Positions 25,720-31,299 of a stretch of 45,089 nt of DNA are shown piece by piece (position 1 is the first letter of the stretch; every line of letters starts with the position of its first letter). Both the position numbers and the translations under genes were made by a program. The stretch comes from Myxococcaceae bacterium (GTDB lineage: Bacteria > Myxococcota > Myxococcia > Myxococcales > Myxococcaceae), in the NCBI GenBank assembly GCA_019694595.1, contig JAIBBQ010000030.1:1-45089 (forward strand), read 5' to 3'. Below the pieces are notes generated by a model. That model worked only from the letters and a program-made list of their open reading frames with translations. It had not been told where the DNA came from and did not search any database.

Positions 25720-26381
25720 GTGGGCCGCGCGCCGAAGAGCGCGGTCCCCACCCGCACCAGCGTGGCGCCTTCCTCGATCGCCACCTCGTAGTCGCCGGTG
25801 GTGCCCATCGACAGCGCCTCGAGCCCCAGCCCCCTGGCCAGCGTCGCCAGCGCCTGGAAGTACGGCCGCGAGGCGTTGGGGTCTTCGTGCAGCGGGGGCA
25901 GGGTGGTGAGCCCCACGACGGTGAGGTTGGGCAGCGCGCGGACCTGCTCGAGCAGCGTGCGCGCGCCTTCGGGCGAGATGCCTGCCTTGGTCGCCTCGCC
26001 GGCGACGTTCACCTGCAGCAGGCAGCGCAGGGGCGCGCCTTCCCGCCGCTGGCTCAGCGCCTGCGCCACGTCGAGCCGGTCGAGCGCGTGGAACACGGTG
26101 GCCGCCTTCGCCACGTACTTGGCGTTCTTGGGCTGCACCGGGCCGATGGCGTGCCACTCGAGGCCCGGGAGATCGGCGAGCGCGGCGTGCTTGTCGCGCA
26201 GCTCCTGGGCGTAGTTCTCGCCGAAGACCCGCTGACCCAGCCCGTGCGCCTCGCGGATGAGCTGGGGCGGGTGCAGCTTGCTCACCGCCACCAGCGTCAC
26301 CGCGCTGCGCGGCCGCCCGGCGCGCGCGCAGGCCGCCGCCACCCGGGCTTCCACCGCGGCGAAGGCCTCGCGCAGGCTCAC
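25716..26381 (-). CDS. yggS: YggS-type pyridoxal-phosphate homeostasis protein
   Basis: 221-residue single-domain PLP-binding protein of the YggS/PROSC family, which buffers PLP and affects amino-acid pools. The Schiff-base Lys 35 is in LVAVSKLHP; other family marks are RVFGENYAQEL, WHAIGPVQPKNAKYVA, LLQVNVAGEATKAG, LSMGTTGDYEVAIEEGATLVRVGTALFG. GTG 26381 overlaps the maf stop by four bases (GTGA) and fixes the start; the frame continuing upstream is antisense shadow. YggS is often next to proC or division genes; pairing with maf is also seen elsewhere. Confidence 0.93.
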   Translation of the reverse strand: MSLREAFAAVEARVAAACARAGRPRSAVTLVAVSKLHPPQLIREAHGLGQRVFGENYAQELRDKHAALADLPGLEWHAIGPVQPKNAKYVAKAATVFHALDRLDVAQALSQRREGAPLRCLLQVNVAGEATKAGISPEGARTLLEQVRALPNLTVVGLTTLPPLHEDPNASRPYFQALATLARGLGLEALSMGTTGDYEVAIEEGATLVRVGTALFGARPT

Positions 26382-26953
26382 CGGCTGCCCCAGGGCATCG
26401 GCACGCCGGCGCGCTCCAGCATCGCCACCGCTTCCGCCAGCGGCAGGCCGATGACCGAGGTGCTGCTGCCGGTCATCGCAGTGATGAAGGCGCCCGCCCG
26501 CGCCTGGCTGGCGTACCCGCCCGCCTTGTCGCGCCCTTCGCCGGTGCCGACGTACCAGGCGATCTCCGCCGCCGAGAGCGGCCGGAAGCGCACCGCGGTG
26601 CTCACCACCAGCGATTCGAGGCTCGCGCCCTGCACGGCCACCGCGGTGAGCACCTCGTGGGTGCGCCCGGACAGGAGCCCGAGCATGGCGCGGCCTTCGG
26701 CCTCGTCCGCCGGCTTGCCGAGGATGCGCTCGTCCACCACCACCGAGGTGTCCGCCGCCAGCACCGCGGCGCCCGGGTGGCGCCCCGCCACCGCCGCCGC
26801 CTTGGCGCGGGCCAGGCGCTCGACGTAGGCCCGGGGTGCTTCCCCGGGGTGAACCGCCTCGTCGAGGTCGGCCGGGTCCACCGAGAAGGTGAGCCCCAGC
26901 TGGCGCAGGAGCTCCTGTCTCCGGGGCGACGACGACGCGAGGACGAGGCGCAT
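26378..26953 (-). CDS. maf: Maf-family nucleotide pyrophosphatase
   Basis: 191-residue septum-associated Maf protein; the family hydrolyses non-canonical or modified nucleoside triphosphates (dTTP/UTP, or m7GTP for the YceF branch) and can inhibit division when overproduced. Motifs: LASSSPRRQELL (residues 5-16), catalytic Asp 68 in AADTSVVVD, GKPADEAEGRAML, SGRTHEVLTAV, and the DKAGGYA segment. It leads the maf-yggS operon. A perfect TTGACA lies upstream with spacing that would make the transcript leaderless. Confidence 0.95.
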   Translation of the reverse strand: MRLVLASSSPRRQELLRQLGLTFSVDPADLDEAVHPGEAPRAYVERLARAKAAAVAGRHPGAAVLAADTSVVVDERILGKPADEAEGRAMLGLLSGRTHEVLTAVAVQGASLESLVVSTAVRFRPLSAAEIAWYVGTGEGRDKAGGYASQARAGAFITAMTGSSTSVIGLPLAEAVAMLERAGVPMPWGSR

Positions 26954-27009: not shown

Positions 27010-28047
27010 ATGAACCCCGCCGATCTCCTCGGTGCGCTGCAGCGCAACCTGAAGCAGCTCGCGGCGTTCAACGACATCGCCAAGGCGCTCACCTCGACGC
27101 TCGAGCTCAAGGAAGTGCTCAAGGTCATCGGCGCCACCGGCTCGCAGATGCTGGGCGCCGAGCGCTGGTCGCTCCTGCTCGCCGACGAAGGCGGCATGCT
27201 GAACTTCGAGATCGCCGTGGGCCCGGGCGCGGAACGGCTCAAGGCGCTCGCGGTGGTGGCGGGCGAAGGCATCGCGGGCACCGTCTACGCCACCGGCAAG
27301 GCCCGGCTGGTCGCCGACGTGAAGAACGACCCGGACTTCGCCCCGCGCTTCGACCAGGTCACCGCCCTGGCCACCAAGTCCATCGTCGCGGTGCCGCTCG
27401 CGGTGCGCGGCCGCACCCTGGGCGTGCTCGAGCTGGTGAACGGCCCGGGCTCACCCGACTTCACGCAAGACGACCTGCACGCGGCGACCGCGATCGCCGA
27501 CTTCGCGGCCATCGCCATCGACAACGCGCAGAACTTCCAGCGCGTGCAGGAACTCACGCTCATCGACGAGCACACCGGCCTGGGCAACGTGCGGGCGCTC
27601 AAGCTGCAGCTCGAGCGCGAGGTCGCCCGCTGCCGCCGCTTCGCCCGGCCGCTGTCGGTGTGCTTCATCGACCTCGACAAGTTCAAGCAGGTCAACGACA
27701 CGCACGGCCACCTCGCGGGCTCGAACATCCTCCGGCAGGTCGGAGGGCTGCTGCGGGAGACGGCGCGCGCGGTCGACCCCGCCTTCCGCTACGGCGGCGA
27801 CGAGTTCGCGCTGCTCTTGCTGGAGACCAACATGGAAGGGGCCCAGCGCGCCGGCCTGCGGGTGCTCGACGAGCTCTCGCGGCGCGCCTTCGAGATCTCG
27901 CCCGGGGTCACCGTGTCGCTCAGCGCCTCGATCGGCTGCGCGAGCTTCCCCGAGCACGGGCAGACGGCCGAAGGCCTCATCGAGGCCGCCGACCGCGCGA
28001 TGTACCGGGTGAAGCGCAGCGGCCGCAACGGCGTCGCGGTCGCCTGA
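27010..28047 (+). CDS. GAF-GGDEF diguanylate cyclase with intact I-site
   Basis: 345-residue cytoplasmic signalling enzyme that would make c-di-GMP from two GTP. Residues about 20-165 are a GAF sensor domain (GEGIAGTVYATGKARLVADV, SIVAVPLAVRGRTLGVLELVN), then a GGDEF domain from about 178. Substrate residues include CFIDLDKFKQVNDTHGH; the active site is GGDEF at 262-266. R-AV-D at 253-256 sits exactly five residues before it, the product-inhibition I-site. All essential residues are present. GGAAGG at 26995-27000 serves ATG 27010. The next gene, an MglA-like pseudo-GTPase, starts two bases after the stop, so the two are likely made together. Confidence 0.93.
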   Translation: MNPADLLGALQRNLKQLAAFNDIAKALTSTLELKEVLKVIGATGSQMLGAERWSLLLADEGGMLNFEIAVGPGAERLKALAVVAGEGIAGTVYATGKARLVADVKNDPDFAPRFDQVTALATKSIVAVPLAVRGRTLGVLELVNGPGSPDFTQDDLHAATAIADFAAIAIDNAQNFQRVQELTLIDEHTGLGNVRALKLQLEREVARCRRFARPLSVCFIDLDKFKQVNDTHGHLAGSNILRQVGGLLRETARAVDPAFRYGGDEFALLLLETNMEGAQRAGLRVLDELSRRAFEISPGVTVSLSASIGCASFPEHGQTAEGLIEAADRAMYRVKRSGRNGVAVA

Positions 28048-28049
28048 CG

Positions 28050-28766
28050 ATGCGGAACGACCCCAGGACCGGCGAGCTGCACTGCAAGGTGCTCCTCGTC
28101 GGGCCAGCCGGCTCCGGTCTGCGCGCCACCGTCTTTAGCCTCGTCGACGCGCTCGCCGATGGACCTCACGTTCGCTCGTCCGAGTTGCCCGGTACGCAGC
28201 GGCTCCCGGCGGGGCACATGCACCCGCGCGGCGCCGACCTGGCGCTGGCCAGCCTCGAACTCGCCGCGCTGGTGACCGACGATGGGCTCACGGCTCGGGT
28301 GCGGGGCTCGACGCTGGGCTTCGAGGCGGTCCGGACGCGGCTCCGCGCGGGGGGCCTGCCGGTGGTGATGCACCTGTTCTGGATTCCGGCGGAGCTCGCC
28401 GGCAACCGGTTCCAGGTCGGGCGCATGTCGCTCGACTGGTTGAGCCACGCCGACCTGGTGGTCTTTCACGGCGATTCGCGTCGCGAGCGCAGGCAGGACA
28501 ACGCAGCCGGCCTGCGGGAGCTGACGGCCTTCCTCGAGCGCTCAGGCGGGAAGATCGACCTGGTGCACGGCCGCACCGGCGCAGGCGCAGTGGCCGTCGA
28601 GGTGGACTCCGTGGGCGAGCTCGCGGAGCTCGTCTCCGCGGCGGTCGAGGCGCTGCTGCCTCCGGCCCCGCCCACCGCGTCGGTTCCCCGGCGGTCGAAG
28701 GCCCTGAAGCCTCCCGGGGCGCGCGAGCGCCCGGTCAGGAAGTCGCGGACGAAGAAGAAGCGCTGA
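28050..28766 (+). CDS. degenerate MglA-like small GTPase (pseudo-GTPase)
   Basis: 238 residues. By eye it follows the MglA polarity GTPase along most of its core: GELHCKVLLVGPAGSGLRAT (residues 8-27) matches the MglA start REINCKI-YYGPGLCGKTT, HLFWIPAEL (108-116) matches HLYTVPGQV, and LVVFHGDSRRERRQDN (136-151) matches VVFVADS-x-x-x-R-x-x-x-N. The nucleotide-binding residues are lost: P-loop GKT is GLR (23-25), switch II PGQ is PAE, and no N/TKxD is visible. It therefore probably does not bind or hydrolyse GTP normally. A basic, Pro-rich tail (about 200-238) is extra. It is coupled to the diguanylate cyclase. The homology call is my reading, not a search result. Confidence 0.68.
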   Translation: MRNDPRTGELHCKVLLVGPAGSGLRATVFSLVDALADGPHVRSSELPGTQRLPAGHMHPRGADLALASLELAALVTDDGLTARVRGSTLGFEAVRTRLRAGGLPVVMHLFWIPAELAGNRFQVGRMSLDWLSHADLVVFHGDSRRERRQDNAAGLRELTAFLERSGGKIDLVHGRTGAGAVAVEVDSVGELAELVSAAVEALLPPAPPTASVPRRSKALKPPGARERPVRKSRTKKKR

Positions 28767-28787
28767 CGGCGACGGCGCTCAGCCTTC
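28757..28787. terminator. inverted repeat spanning both stop codons, pseudo-GTPase/PPIase junction
   Basis: GAAG-C-GCTGA (28757-28766) pairs with TCAGC-CTTC (28779-28787) around a 12-base loop, giving 5 bp, a one-base bulge and 4 bp. Both TGA codons lie in the stem. No T tract. Candidate bidirectional terminator. Confidence 0.4.
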
Positions 28788-30362
28788 GGTGACGCGCTCG
28801 ATGGCGCGGTCGTTCACCACCACCGTGCCGGCCTGCTTGAGGCCCTTCACGAAGGACTCGCGCAGCTCGAACTGCTTGCCCTTGATGGCCTGGGTGGTGA
28901 GCGTTTCCTTCTGGGCCGCCCAAGCTTCCTCGGTCGGCTTGGTGCGCGCGTCGAGCACCACCACCGCGAGCCCGTCGCCCACTTCGTAGACCTTGTCGAG
29001 CGTGCCCGGGGCAGCGGCGTCGAAGACCGCCTTGAGCAGCTCGGGCTGCGCCCCCAGCTGGGGAATCGAGGTGACCCCGGCGTTGAACTCGCCGGTCTCG
29101 GTCGCCTCGGTCTTGCCGGAGTTGCCCAGCATCGCGAAGGGGTTGTCGTCTTCCTTCTTCTTCTCCTCGGGCGGGTAGAGCGATTTGAGCGTGCTCTTGC
29201 CCGACTTCACCGCGGCGAGCGCCTTCTCGGCGTCGGCCCTGGCGAGCGCCTTGGCCTGCTCGCGCGTCCACAGCTGGGTGGCGATCTCGGTGCGCACCTG
29301 GTCGAGCGTCTTGGTCTCCGGGGCCACCTTCTTCTCGACCTTGGCGAGGTGCCAGCCGAGCGGCGTCTCCACGGGAGCGGTCACCCCGCCGGCCGGAAGC
29401 GCGAAGGCCGCGTCGGCGAGCTTGGTGGGCAGCGAGACGCGCTCGATGAGGCCCAGGTCGCCGCCCTTGTCGCGGCTCTCGGTGTCGTCGGAGAACTGCT
29501 TGGCGAGCTCGGCGAAGTCCTTGCCCGAGTCGAGCTCCTTCTTGAGGTTCTCGATCTTCTGCTTGGCCTCGTCGCGCTTGGCCTTGGGGTCGTCGCTCAT
29601 CGCGCGGATGAGGATCTGCCGCACCTGGGCGCGCTCGGGCTGGAAGTAGCTCATCTTGTTCATCTCGTAGTACCCGGCGATGTCGGCCTCGTGGGCCTTG
29701 GCCCAGGCGTCGACCTGGCCCGGCTTGGCCGCGGGCACCTTGCTCACGTACGCGGTGGGCGAGAAGCGAACGAAGGTGGCCTTCGCGGTGTTGCCTTCCT
29801 TGAGGAACTTCGCGTGCACCTCGTCGTCGCTCACCACCGCGCCCGCCTCGACCAGGTCGCGCAGGTGATCGGCGGCGATGCGGCGGCGGAGCTTGTCCTC
29901 GTACTCGACGTCGGTCGACCGGTAGAAGTCGCGCAGCACCTGGCGGTACTGGTCGGGGTTGAAGGCCCCGTCCTTCTGGAAGTCGGGGTTCTTCTGCAGC
30001 ACCTCGAGCAGCTCCGCGTCGGACGCGGCCAGGCCCCGCGCCTCGGCGGCCTGCGCCAGGAGCTCGGAGTTCACCAGGTAGTCCACCACCTGCTTGTGCA
30101 TGCCGAGCTGCTTGGCGAGCTCCGCGGTGAGCCCCTGCGCGCGGTACTGGCGCAGCTGGTTCGAGTAGATGGTGGCGAACTCGGCGACGGGAATTTCCTT
30201 CCCGTTGACGGTGGCGATCGCCTCCTTGACGTTGGCTTCCGCCTGCTCCGCCCGGGTGCAACCCTTGGAACCGGGACCCCACTCGAGGGCGAACAGCACC
30301 GCGAGCACGAGGATGAAGAGGTAGGTGCCGGCCTGGCGCTTATCGAAGGTCTGATTTGCCAT
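28779..30362 (-). CDS. membrane-anchored PpiC/SurA-type peptidyl-prolyl isomerase (PpiD-like)
   Basis: 527-residue periplasm-facing folding factor. ATG 30362 begins MANQTFDKRQAGTYLFILVL: a short cytoplasmic basic stretch, then one membrane segment (about 13-28), as in PpiD. A SurA-N-like helical chaperone part follows (about 45-230), then a parvulin domain (about 238-350) with VRQILIRAM, FAELAKQFSDDTESRDKGGDLG and APVETPLGWHLAKVE, and a helical C-terminal part (about 370-527). It would help outer-membrane or secreted proteins fold after translocation. An earlier in-frame Met at 30596 lies inside mreC on the other strand and is rejected. It is divergent from mreC with 73 bp between starts. Confidence 0.9.
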   Translation of the reverse strand: MANQTFDKRQAGTYLFILVLAVLFALEWGPGSKGCTRAEQAEANVKEAIATVNGKEIPVAEFATIYSNQLRQYRAQGLTAELAKQLGMHKQVVDYLVNSELLAQAAEARGLAASDAELLEVLQKNPDFQKDGAFNPDQYRQVLRDFYRSTDVEYEDKLRRRIAADHLRDLVEAGAVVSDDEVHAKFLKEGNTAKATFVRFSPTAYVSKVPAAKPGQVDAWAKAHEADIAGYYEMNKMSYFQPERAQVRQILIRAMSDDPKAKRDEAKQKIENLKKELDSGKDFAELAKQFSDDTESRDKGGDLGLIERVSLPTKLADAAFALPAGGVTAPVETPLGWHLAKVEKKVAPETKTLDQVRTEIATQLWTREQAKALARADAEKALAAVKSGKSTLKSLYPPEEKKKEDDNPFAMLGNSGKTEATETGEFNAGVTSIPQLGAQPELLKAVFDAAAPGTLDKVYEVGDGLAVVVLDARTKPTEEAWAAQKETLTTQAIKGKQFELRESFVKGLKQAGTVVVNDRAIERVTEG

Positions 30363-30394
30363 GTGATTGAGAGGGGTTATCCGAAGGGAATGAC

Positions 30395-30423
30395 TTGACC
30401 TGTAGGATCCACCCCCTGAACAT
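30395..30423 (+). promoter_or_regulatory. candidate promoter of the mreCD-mrdA-rodA operon
   Basis: TTGACC (30395-30400), 17 bp, GAACAT (30418-30423), then 12 bp to ATG 30436. It lies in the 73-bp divergent gap shared with the PPIase gene. The -35 is good, the -10 weak. Confidence 0.3.
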
Positions 30424-30435
30424 GCAAGGGCTTTG

Positions 30436-31299
30436 ATGCGCGGACTGTTCGGCAGATATCGAGACGTCTTCATCGTGGGCGCGCTGCTCGTGTTTCCGTT
30501 CGTCACCTTCCTCTCGTCGGGCCACAAGGGGCGCGACCCCAACGTGGTGGACCGCGTGGTGCTCGCGGTGGCGGCGCCCATCCAGGGGGCGCTCACCTGG
30601 CTGGTCGACGGCGTGGGCGACGGCGTCGACGGCTACCTCACGCTGCGCGGCGCCCGCGAGGAAGCGCGCGCCTGCACGGTGGAGCTGTCGCAGACCCGCG
30701 CCGAGCTCAACACCTTGCGCGAGGCGTCGCTGGAGAACGAGCGGCTGCGCAAGCTCCTCGGCTACGTGGAGCGCTCGGTCGACACCGAGATCGCCGCCCG
30801 GGTGGTGGGGGTCAACCCTTCGCCCCAGTTCCTCTCGGTGCGGCTGAGCCGGGGCGAGAGCGACGGGGTGCACGTGGGCATGCCGGTGGTGACGCCCGAC
30901 GGGGTGCTCGGCCAGGTGGTGCGCACGGTGAGCGGCAGCGCCGACGTGATGCTGCTGTCCGACCCGGTGAGCCGCGTGGGCGCGGTGCTGCAGCGCACCC
31001 GCGTGCGCGCCACGGTGGTGGGCACCGGCGACGGCAAGCGGCTGGCGCTCGAGAACACCGGCCGCGACGCCGACGTGCAGGCCAACGACGTGGTGGTCAC
31101 CTCGGGGACCGACGGCATCTTCCCCAAGGGTCTGGTGCTGGGCACGGTGGAAGCGGTGCAGCGCGCGCCGTCGGGGCTCTTCCTGTCGGCGCAGCTCGCC
31201 CCCGCGGTGGTGCCCGGCACGGTGGAAGAAGTGCTGGTGGTGCCGGCGGTGGCCGCGGTGCCGCCGGCCGCCTTGCTGCCGCAGCGGAGCACTCCATGA
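30436..31299 (+). CDS. mreC: rod shape-determining protein MreC
   Basis: Periplasmic scaffold of the cell-elongation complex, 287 residues. One N-terminal membrane segment (FIVGALLVFPFVTFLSS, about 12-28), a coiled coil (about 70-108, ELSQTRAELNTLREASLENERLRKLLGY), and the two MreC beta-barrels, with AARVVGVNPSPQFLSVRLSRG and VVTSGTDGIFPKGLVLGTV. ATG 30436 gives MRGLFGRYRD; TTG 30433 directly precedes it. It overlaps mreD by four bases (ATGA 31296-31299). MreC binds PBP2 and RodA, which follow in the operon. mreB is not in the window. Confidence 0.94.
   Translation: MRGLFGRYRDVFIVGALLVFPFVTFLSSGHKGRDPNVVDRVVLAVAAPIQGALTWLVDGVGDGVDGYLTLRGAREEARACTVELSQTRAELNTLREASLENERLRKLLGYVERSVDTEIAARVVGVNPSPQFLSVRLSRGESDGVHVGMPVVTPDGVLGQVVRTVSGSADVMLLSDPVSRVGAVLQRTRVRATVVGTGDGKRLALENTGRDADVQANDVVVTSGTDGIFPKGLVLGTVEAVQRAPSGLFLSAQLAPAVVPGTVEEVLVVPAVAAVPPAALLPQRSTP

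Follow-up and report, generated by a model that had tools for sequence, protein, structure and literature searches.

Locus organisation

The window analysed here is a stretch of 45,089 nucleotides on contig JAIBBQ010000030.1 of a Myxococcaceae bacterium (genome G000; 7.28 Mb, 394 contigs), the sole member of its genus among the genomes compared. The original prediction had assigned positions 27010–28766 to a diguanylate cyclase together with, two bases further on, a nucleotide-blind MglA-like protein, hereafter P0001. Direct reading of the sequence bore out both the coordinates and the spacing, with the cyclase stop codon TGA at 28045–28047, the ATG of P0001 at 28050 on the same strand, and its stop codon at 28764–28766. 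The cyclase was likewise confirmed as a complete GAF-GGDEF enzyme with intact active site and I-site (Table 1). P0001 is almost certainly co-translated from the cyclase transcript, the two genes being, as we infer, co-transcribed. A Pfam scan of ten neighbouring proteins identified Maf, a YggS-like protein and PpiD but no Robl_LC7 (roadblock/MglB) domain; nor were the genes typical of Group 1 Rup neighbourhoods (coiled-coil, OmpA-domain, DGC/PDE or kinase set) present among these ten.

Table 1. Coordinates of the features discussed; L numbers denote separate loci with their own numbering, all other positions being those of the window. Export is predicted from sequence by eye.
Feature	Position	Strand	Basis
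Maf, divergent from the cyclase, conserved neighbour	26378..26953	-	Pfam Maf 4e-58
GAF-GGDEF diguanylate cyclase, 345 aa	27010..28047	+	Pfam GAF 1.6e-20, GGDEF 4.8e-40
I-site RAVD (RxxD), five residues ahead of GGDEF	27766..27777	+	Direct reading
A-site GGDEF, intact	27793..27807	+	Direct reading
P0001, putative MglA-like pseudo-GTPase, 238 aa	28050..28766	+	MglA profile E 2.5e-6; best structural matches MglA
P-loop equivalent GPAGSGLR, Lys and Thr/Ser lost	28101..28124	+	Alignments
~50 residues (38-87) replacing switch I, low confidence, likely flexible	28161..28310	+	pLDDT; alignment gap
Switch II equivalent WIPAEL replacing TVPGQ	28380..28397	+	Alignment
KIDLVHGRT replacing NKxD, degenerate base-specificity region	28551..28577	+	Alignment, ambiguous here
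Pro-rich, strongly basic C-terminal tail (RRSK...RKSRTKKKR)	28665..28763	+	Direct reading; outside structurally aligned domain
PpiD/SurA-like peptidyl-prolyl isomerase, convergent	28779..30596	-	Pfam
PocR-coupled MglA paralogue	L111:1366-3593	+	
PocR-coupled MglA paralogue	L093:17-2178	-	
PocR-coupled MglA paralogue	L105:1426-3645	+	
PocR-coupled MglA paralogue	L118:1-2139	-	
PocR-coupled MglA paralogue	L098, L100, L123		
Exported MglA derivative	L161:2319-3008	-	
Exported MglA derivative	L160:2118-2768	+	
Exported MglA derivative	L162:2488-3159	+	

Homology and fold of P0001

P0001 gave a single, insignificant NCBIfam match and no Pfam match, the latter attributable to its divergence because the intact MglA of G000 does score in Pfam (Arf, 2.3e-9). 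A profile of 37 MglA-family sequences, taken from the loci fetched during the analysis, recognised P0001 with 25.3 bits (E=2.5e-6), most strongly over residues 87–166. The decoy set comprised 5,010 sequences (2,000 shuffled sequences and 3,010 further reading frames, with the two longer frames containing P0001 excepted), of which the top unrelated member reached 4.9 bits, so the likeness to MglA exceeds chance. A single-sequence search of the phylum yielded weak matches (E ~0.01) over the same stretch in seven related genomes; five of these were translated, and all corresponded to an intact MglA paralogue. A phmmer search of PDB sequences returned only an unrelated oxidase.

A model computed from the single sequence, with no MglA in the input, was of low confidence (pLDDT 50). 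Searched with Foldseek, it retrieved Ras-like GTPases as nearly all top matches, and the first six rows of VIA-align were all MglA structures, including that of M. xanthus (Z 10.9–10.2, ~155 residues, 17–20% identity). An MglA-seeded model, also of low confidence (pLDDT 58), attained Z 12.3 against MglA, a value that is partly circular. Residues 39–91 and 41–90 had pLDDT below 50 in the two models. The MglA scaffold proposed at the outset is thus upheld, if remotely, with MglA as the top structural match of a low-confidence model (Z ~10.9), and the profile and model data together indicate that P0001 is a remote MglA-family homologue with a small GTPase fold.

Loss of the nucleotide-binding motifs

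In P0001, the G1 consensus GxxxxGK[ST] is replaced by GPAGSGLR, the catalytic Arg of G2 by Ser with retention of Thr88, and the G3 motif PGQ (TVPGQ or GTPGQ in the family) by PAE within WIPAE. The G4 motif, [NT]KxD, is degenerate: one alignment pairs GKID (residues 167–170) with NKRD, the other reading assigns KIDLVHG to strand β5, the Asn/Thr is absent under both, and ~35 residues around the motif are missing. Of the losses first described, those of the P-loop Lys and of PGQ hold in the alignments, whereas N/TKxD is better termed degenerate than cleanly absent. P0001 is therefore a predicted pseudo-GTPase, from which the nucleotide motifs have gone while the GTPase fold is kept, and it would be unable to bind GTP in the usual way. 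Its basic Pro-rich tail recalls the polybasic C-termini found on small GTPases of eukaryotes.

It is very improbable that P0001 binds a nucleotide, perhaps c-di-GMP, by an unusual route and so acts as a non-canonical switch or receptor. Changes in G4 are tolerated in some MglA groups (PMC4316618), GKID could replace NKxD, and the tail is basic, but both the Lys and the Thr of G1 are lost together with G3, and inspection by eye revealed no known c-di-GMP motif.

Relationship to MglA paralogues and the polarity machinery

Over 166 columns, P0001 is 30–35% identical to an MglA paralogue coupled to a PocR histidine kinase, compared with 23.5% to the motility MglA of its own genome and 19–25% to other groups, and it has the segments REL-x-x-K-V/I and GAVA-V in common with that paralogue. 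FastTree positioned P0001 inside the PocR-coupled clade, with a branch length of 2.6 substitutions per site; its exact position there is unsupported (0.33). The paralogue occurs across Myxococcales, with a copy in G000 itself (contig C189, L123), and a PocR-HisKA-HATPase gene overlaps or abuts it in all six loci tested. Both it and P0001 adjoin the gene of a ligand-sensing signalling protein. The paralogue, however, retains GKT, PGQ and NKxD intact and is followed by the PocR kinase gene, whereas P0001 is without all three motifs, carries a basic tail and lies downstream of a cyclase. A text search found neither a paper on this PocR-kinase-coupled MglA-like GTPase nor a name for it. As judged from these comparisons, the nearest kin of P0001 is this paralogue and not primarily the polarity GTPase.

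Judging from the MglA–MglB structures, MglB would be expected to bind at switch I and switch II. With a low-confidence stretch in the position of switch I, and with switch II gone, canonical binding of MglB or RomR by P0001 appears unlikely. The original prediction had cast the protein as a possible scaffold or decoy for MglB, RomR or other MglA partners that would link c-di-GMP to cell polarity. In favour of such a link are the MglA fold, the true mglB–mglA pair of G000, in which the motility mglA adjoins mglB (L125), and the effect of c-di-GMP on M. xanthus polarity via the cyclase DmxA (PMC11255338). Against it, the closest relative of P0001 is the PocR-kinase-coupled paralogue rather than motility MglA, both switches are lost, the ten neighbours scanned include no roadblock gene, and the cyclase–P0001 pair is not conserved (see below). 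The proposal is thus unsupported, and we regard it as improbable.

Conservation of the locus

No orthologue of P0001 was found among 195 Myxococcota genomes searched (class and phylum), nor was P0001 detected in genome contigs by exact 8-mer patterns or on plasmids. The only matches with E <0.001 (L004 and L005) were judged to be noise, one being of antisense type and the other lying within a large unrelated protein. The remaining weak matches examined were unrelated, except for intact MglA paralogues of family f2. Two ORFs with weak MglA scores were also discarded, one beside ppiD in genome G089 as a FeoB-like transporter (named by eye) and one at L200 as a T2SSE-type ATPase, and a 588-base gap in genome G086 (L033) was occupied by a lipoprotein-like ORF on the opposite strand, with no MglA.

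With a cut-off of E 1e-40, relatives of the GAF-GGDEF cyclase were present in 121 of 145 genomes from the class; the weaker matches include some other GGDEF proteins, and the best were 57–62% identical. They are usually divergent from maf. Of the 29 best relatives, 20 are followed by a convergent ppiD within the stretch examined, 19 of them at a distance of ~80 bases or less. In G000, the corresponding gap measures 734 bases and is occupied by P0001. In the nearest relative, G089, ppiD adjoins the FeoB-like gene and the contig bearing the cyclase ends inside the cyclase gene. In genera g4 and g26 (G049:C460, G053:C75, G131:C262, G132:C9 and G133:C217), maf and ppiD are directly adjacent with no cyclase between them, so the cyclase has been gained or lost at this site. 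The GAF-GGDEF cyclase at maf/ppiD is of ancient origin, with ppiD as its usual immediate neighbour in convergent orientation; its M. xanthus orthologue may be MXAN5791 (348 aa), as judged by length only.

No MglA-like ORF was found nearby at any other of 51 cyclase loci (G000 included), nor at the 80 loci that another database search, with the cyclase as query, retrieved. In other genera, the slot after the cyclase was occupied by an FAD-linked oxidase-like gene (L008, L010 and L016; named by eye), by a lipoprotein-like ORF at L033 and by further genes at L019 and L027, all unrelated as judged by eye. This slot appears as a variable site, with different unrelated genes in each genus. The anticipated conservation of a GGDEF–pseudo-MglA pair across Myxococcota was accordingly not borne out, as the pair exists in one genome only among the 51 and 80 cyclase loci and 195 genomes; the original prediction had itself named such an outcome as refuting it. 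With the pair absent elsewhere and the slot variable, the arrangement is a novelty of local scope, and proximity by itself argues only weakly for a shared function.

P0001 might thus be a functional pseudo-GTPase unrelated to the cyclase, inserted incidentally into a permissive slot and merely using the cyclase promoter. Unrelated genes fill the same slot elsewhere and the cyclase works without P0001 in more than 100 genomes, but the two-base spacing implies tight co-expression and the intact relatives share operons with sensor enzymes. On balance, we consider an incidental arrangement rather unlikely.

Coding status and constraint

The frame of P0001 is coding-like, with a codon score of +0.188 bits per codon while the other five frames are negative, and no stop or frameshift interrupts its 238 codons. 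That the frame is open means little, however, because high GC keeps frames open by chance; the window, at ~73% GC, contains 114 ORFs that reach 120 aa or more. Among the 20 genes of the window, P0001 ranks lowest both in codon log-score (0.24 vs 0.50–0.84 in its neighbours) and in synonymous codon adaptation (0.58 vs 0.70–0.85 for 19 neighbours), the latter falling under the 1% point for gene segments of equal length. Its GC3 is 90% and its GC2 53%, compared with ~45–50% in most neighbours. Status as a divergent paralogue does not suffice to explain the low score, because an exported MglA derivative of G000 (see below) has a normal adaptation of 0.80. Conversely, low codon scores alone do not prove decay, since the genome's own mglB is also low (0.66). 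The scores probably reflect relaxed constraint or a recent origin, and outright decay is possible.

Under decay, a duplicated MglA-like gene behind the cyclase would be losing its function while its frame is held open by high GC. The lack of any orthologue in the 195 genomes, the lowest codon scores of the window, the disappearance of all catalytic motifs, the very long tree branch and the abundance of chance open frames all speak for this. It is harder to reconcile with 238 uninterrupted codons, with a GC3 still at 90% and a small shift in GC2, and with a secondary-structure order and buried pattern kept well enough for the single-sequence model to match MglA. We rate decay as a serious possibility, though not a probable one.

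Comparison with known systems

Precedents exist for small GTPases encoded next to c-di-GMP enzymes, for changes of G4 within MglA groups and, in eukaryotes, for pseudoGTPases. Within the MglA family, 390 of 449 members have a roadblock (MglB) partner within about four genes, orphan members exist, and groups with altered G4 have been described (PMC4316618). The motility MglA (Group 1; M. xanthus MXAN_1925, PDB 6h17 and 6izw) is the best structural match to P0001, with the whole domain aligned, from which P0001 differs in its low sequence identity, the absence of nucleotide motifs and the lack of an MglB neighbour. Group 1 Rup small GTPases share their loci with DGC/PDE fusions or histidine kinases (PMC4316618) and, like P0001, place a small-GTPase-fold gene beside that of a c-di-GMP enzyme. 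In contrast to P0001, the G1–G5 motifs of Rup resemble those of eukaryotic Ras (Group 1 lacks only the Gln of G3) and the genes form a conserved four-gene set (PMC4316618), whereas P0001 is one of just two paired genes, in a single genome.

Eukaryotic pseudoGTPase domains, as in p190RhoGAP (PMC5593906) and degenerate septins (PMC10731463), resemble P0001 in combining a GTPase fold with the loss of nucleotide binding, which for P0001 is deduced from sequence. Unlike P0001, they are evolutionarily conserved and bench-studied, and they are not homologous cases. DmxA of M. xanthus (GAFx2-GGDEF), which is linked to polarity, is a GAF-GGDEF enzyme from the same bacterial family as the present cyclase but is membrane-bound and has two GAF domains rather than one; no partner pseudo-GTPase was seen described for it (PMC11255338). 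A text search combining pseudo-GTPase and MglA found no paper on a pseudo-GTPase in the bacterial MglA family.

Proposed origin and role of P0001

P0001 is best read as a lineage-specific, fast-evolving pseudo-GTPase, and we tentatively favour a role as a non-switching docking protein that is made with the cyclase and most probably serves a signalling partner, with the cyclase as first candidate. Gene decay and an incidental arrangement compete closely with this reading. On this view, the MglA-like GTPase whose usual partner is a PocR sensor histidine kinase gave rise, presumably by duplication, to a copy that landed in the permissive slot behind the ancient maf/GAF-GGDEF pair. The relocated copy would then have shed its nucleotide site and diverged fast, so that no GTP switch would be possible. 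Made from the cyclase mRNA, if the genes are co-transcribed as supposed, its small-GTPase fold and basic tail might dock constitutively on a signalling partner; were this the GAF-GGDEF cyclase, docking could set its place or activity.

With P0001 in a single genome, conservation offers no argument for its function or partner, and its adjacency to the cyclase may be incidental because unrelated genes take this position in other genera. Its lowest codon adaptation and raised GC2 fit relaxed constraint, a point against a functional docking protein. The narrower proposal, that P0001 is a nucleotide-free MglA-like subunit of the diguanylate cyclase, with a Ras fold and a constitutive docking or regulatory role, co-translated with the GAF-GGDEF enzyme, is doubtful. 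If P0001 does act on the cyclase, a second-messenger enzyme would have gained a fixed subunit from what was once a Ras-fold switch.

Putatively exported MglA derivatives

A second family was found in G000 at C188:23080-23727 (L152:5078-5728, minus strand), where a Sec-type signal sequence precedes an MglA body without P-loop, PGQ and NKxD. Relatives occur in three more genomes (G043, G051 and G052; Table 1), so that the derivatives span four genomes of three genera, with all three motifs lost in each. The signal sequences, judged by eye, end in the relatives right where the MglA N-terminus starts. A profile trained on these four members scored them at 342–362 bits and everything else in the 195 genomes at 240 bits or less. 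In FastTree, they form one clade (0.999) that is sister to motility MglA (0.988). We propose that they constitute a small family of exported, putatively nucleotide-blind derivatives of motility MglA with a single origin, which is better supported than P0001 and perhaps the more interesting lead. Nucleotide binding thus appears to have been lost at least twice among Myxococcaceae MglA proteins, in P0001 and in this family, and such repeated loss is a wider point with more genomes behind it than the finding on P0001.

Another divergent MglA-like domain was observed in a 447-aa protein (L128:1652-2995, plus strand; contig C96 of G000, L126), whose gene adjoins small roadblock-like genes and a PDZ-like gene (named by eye).
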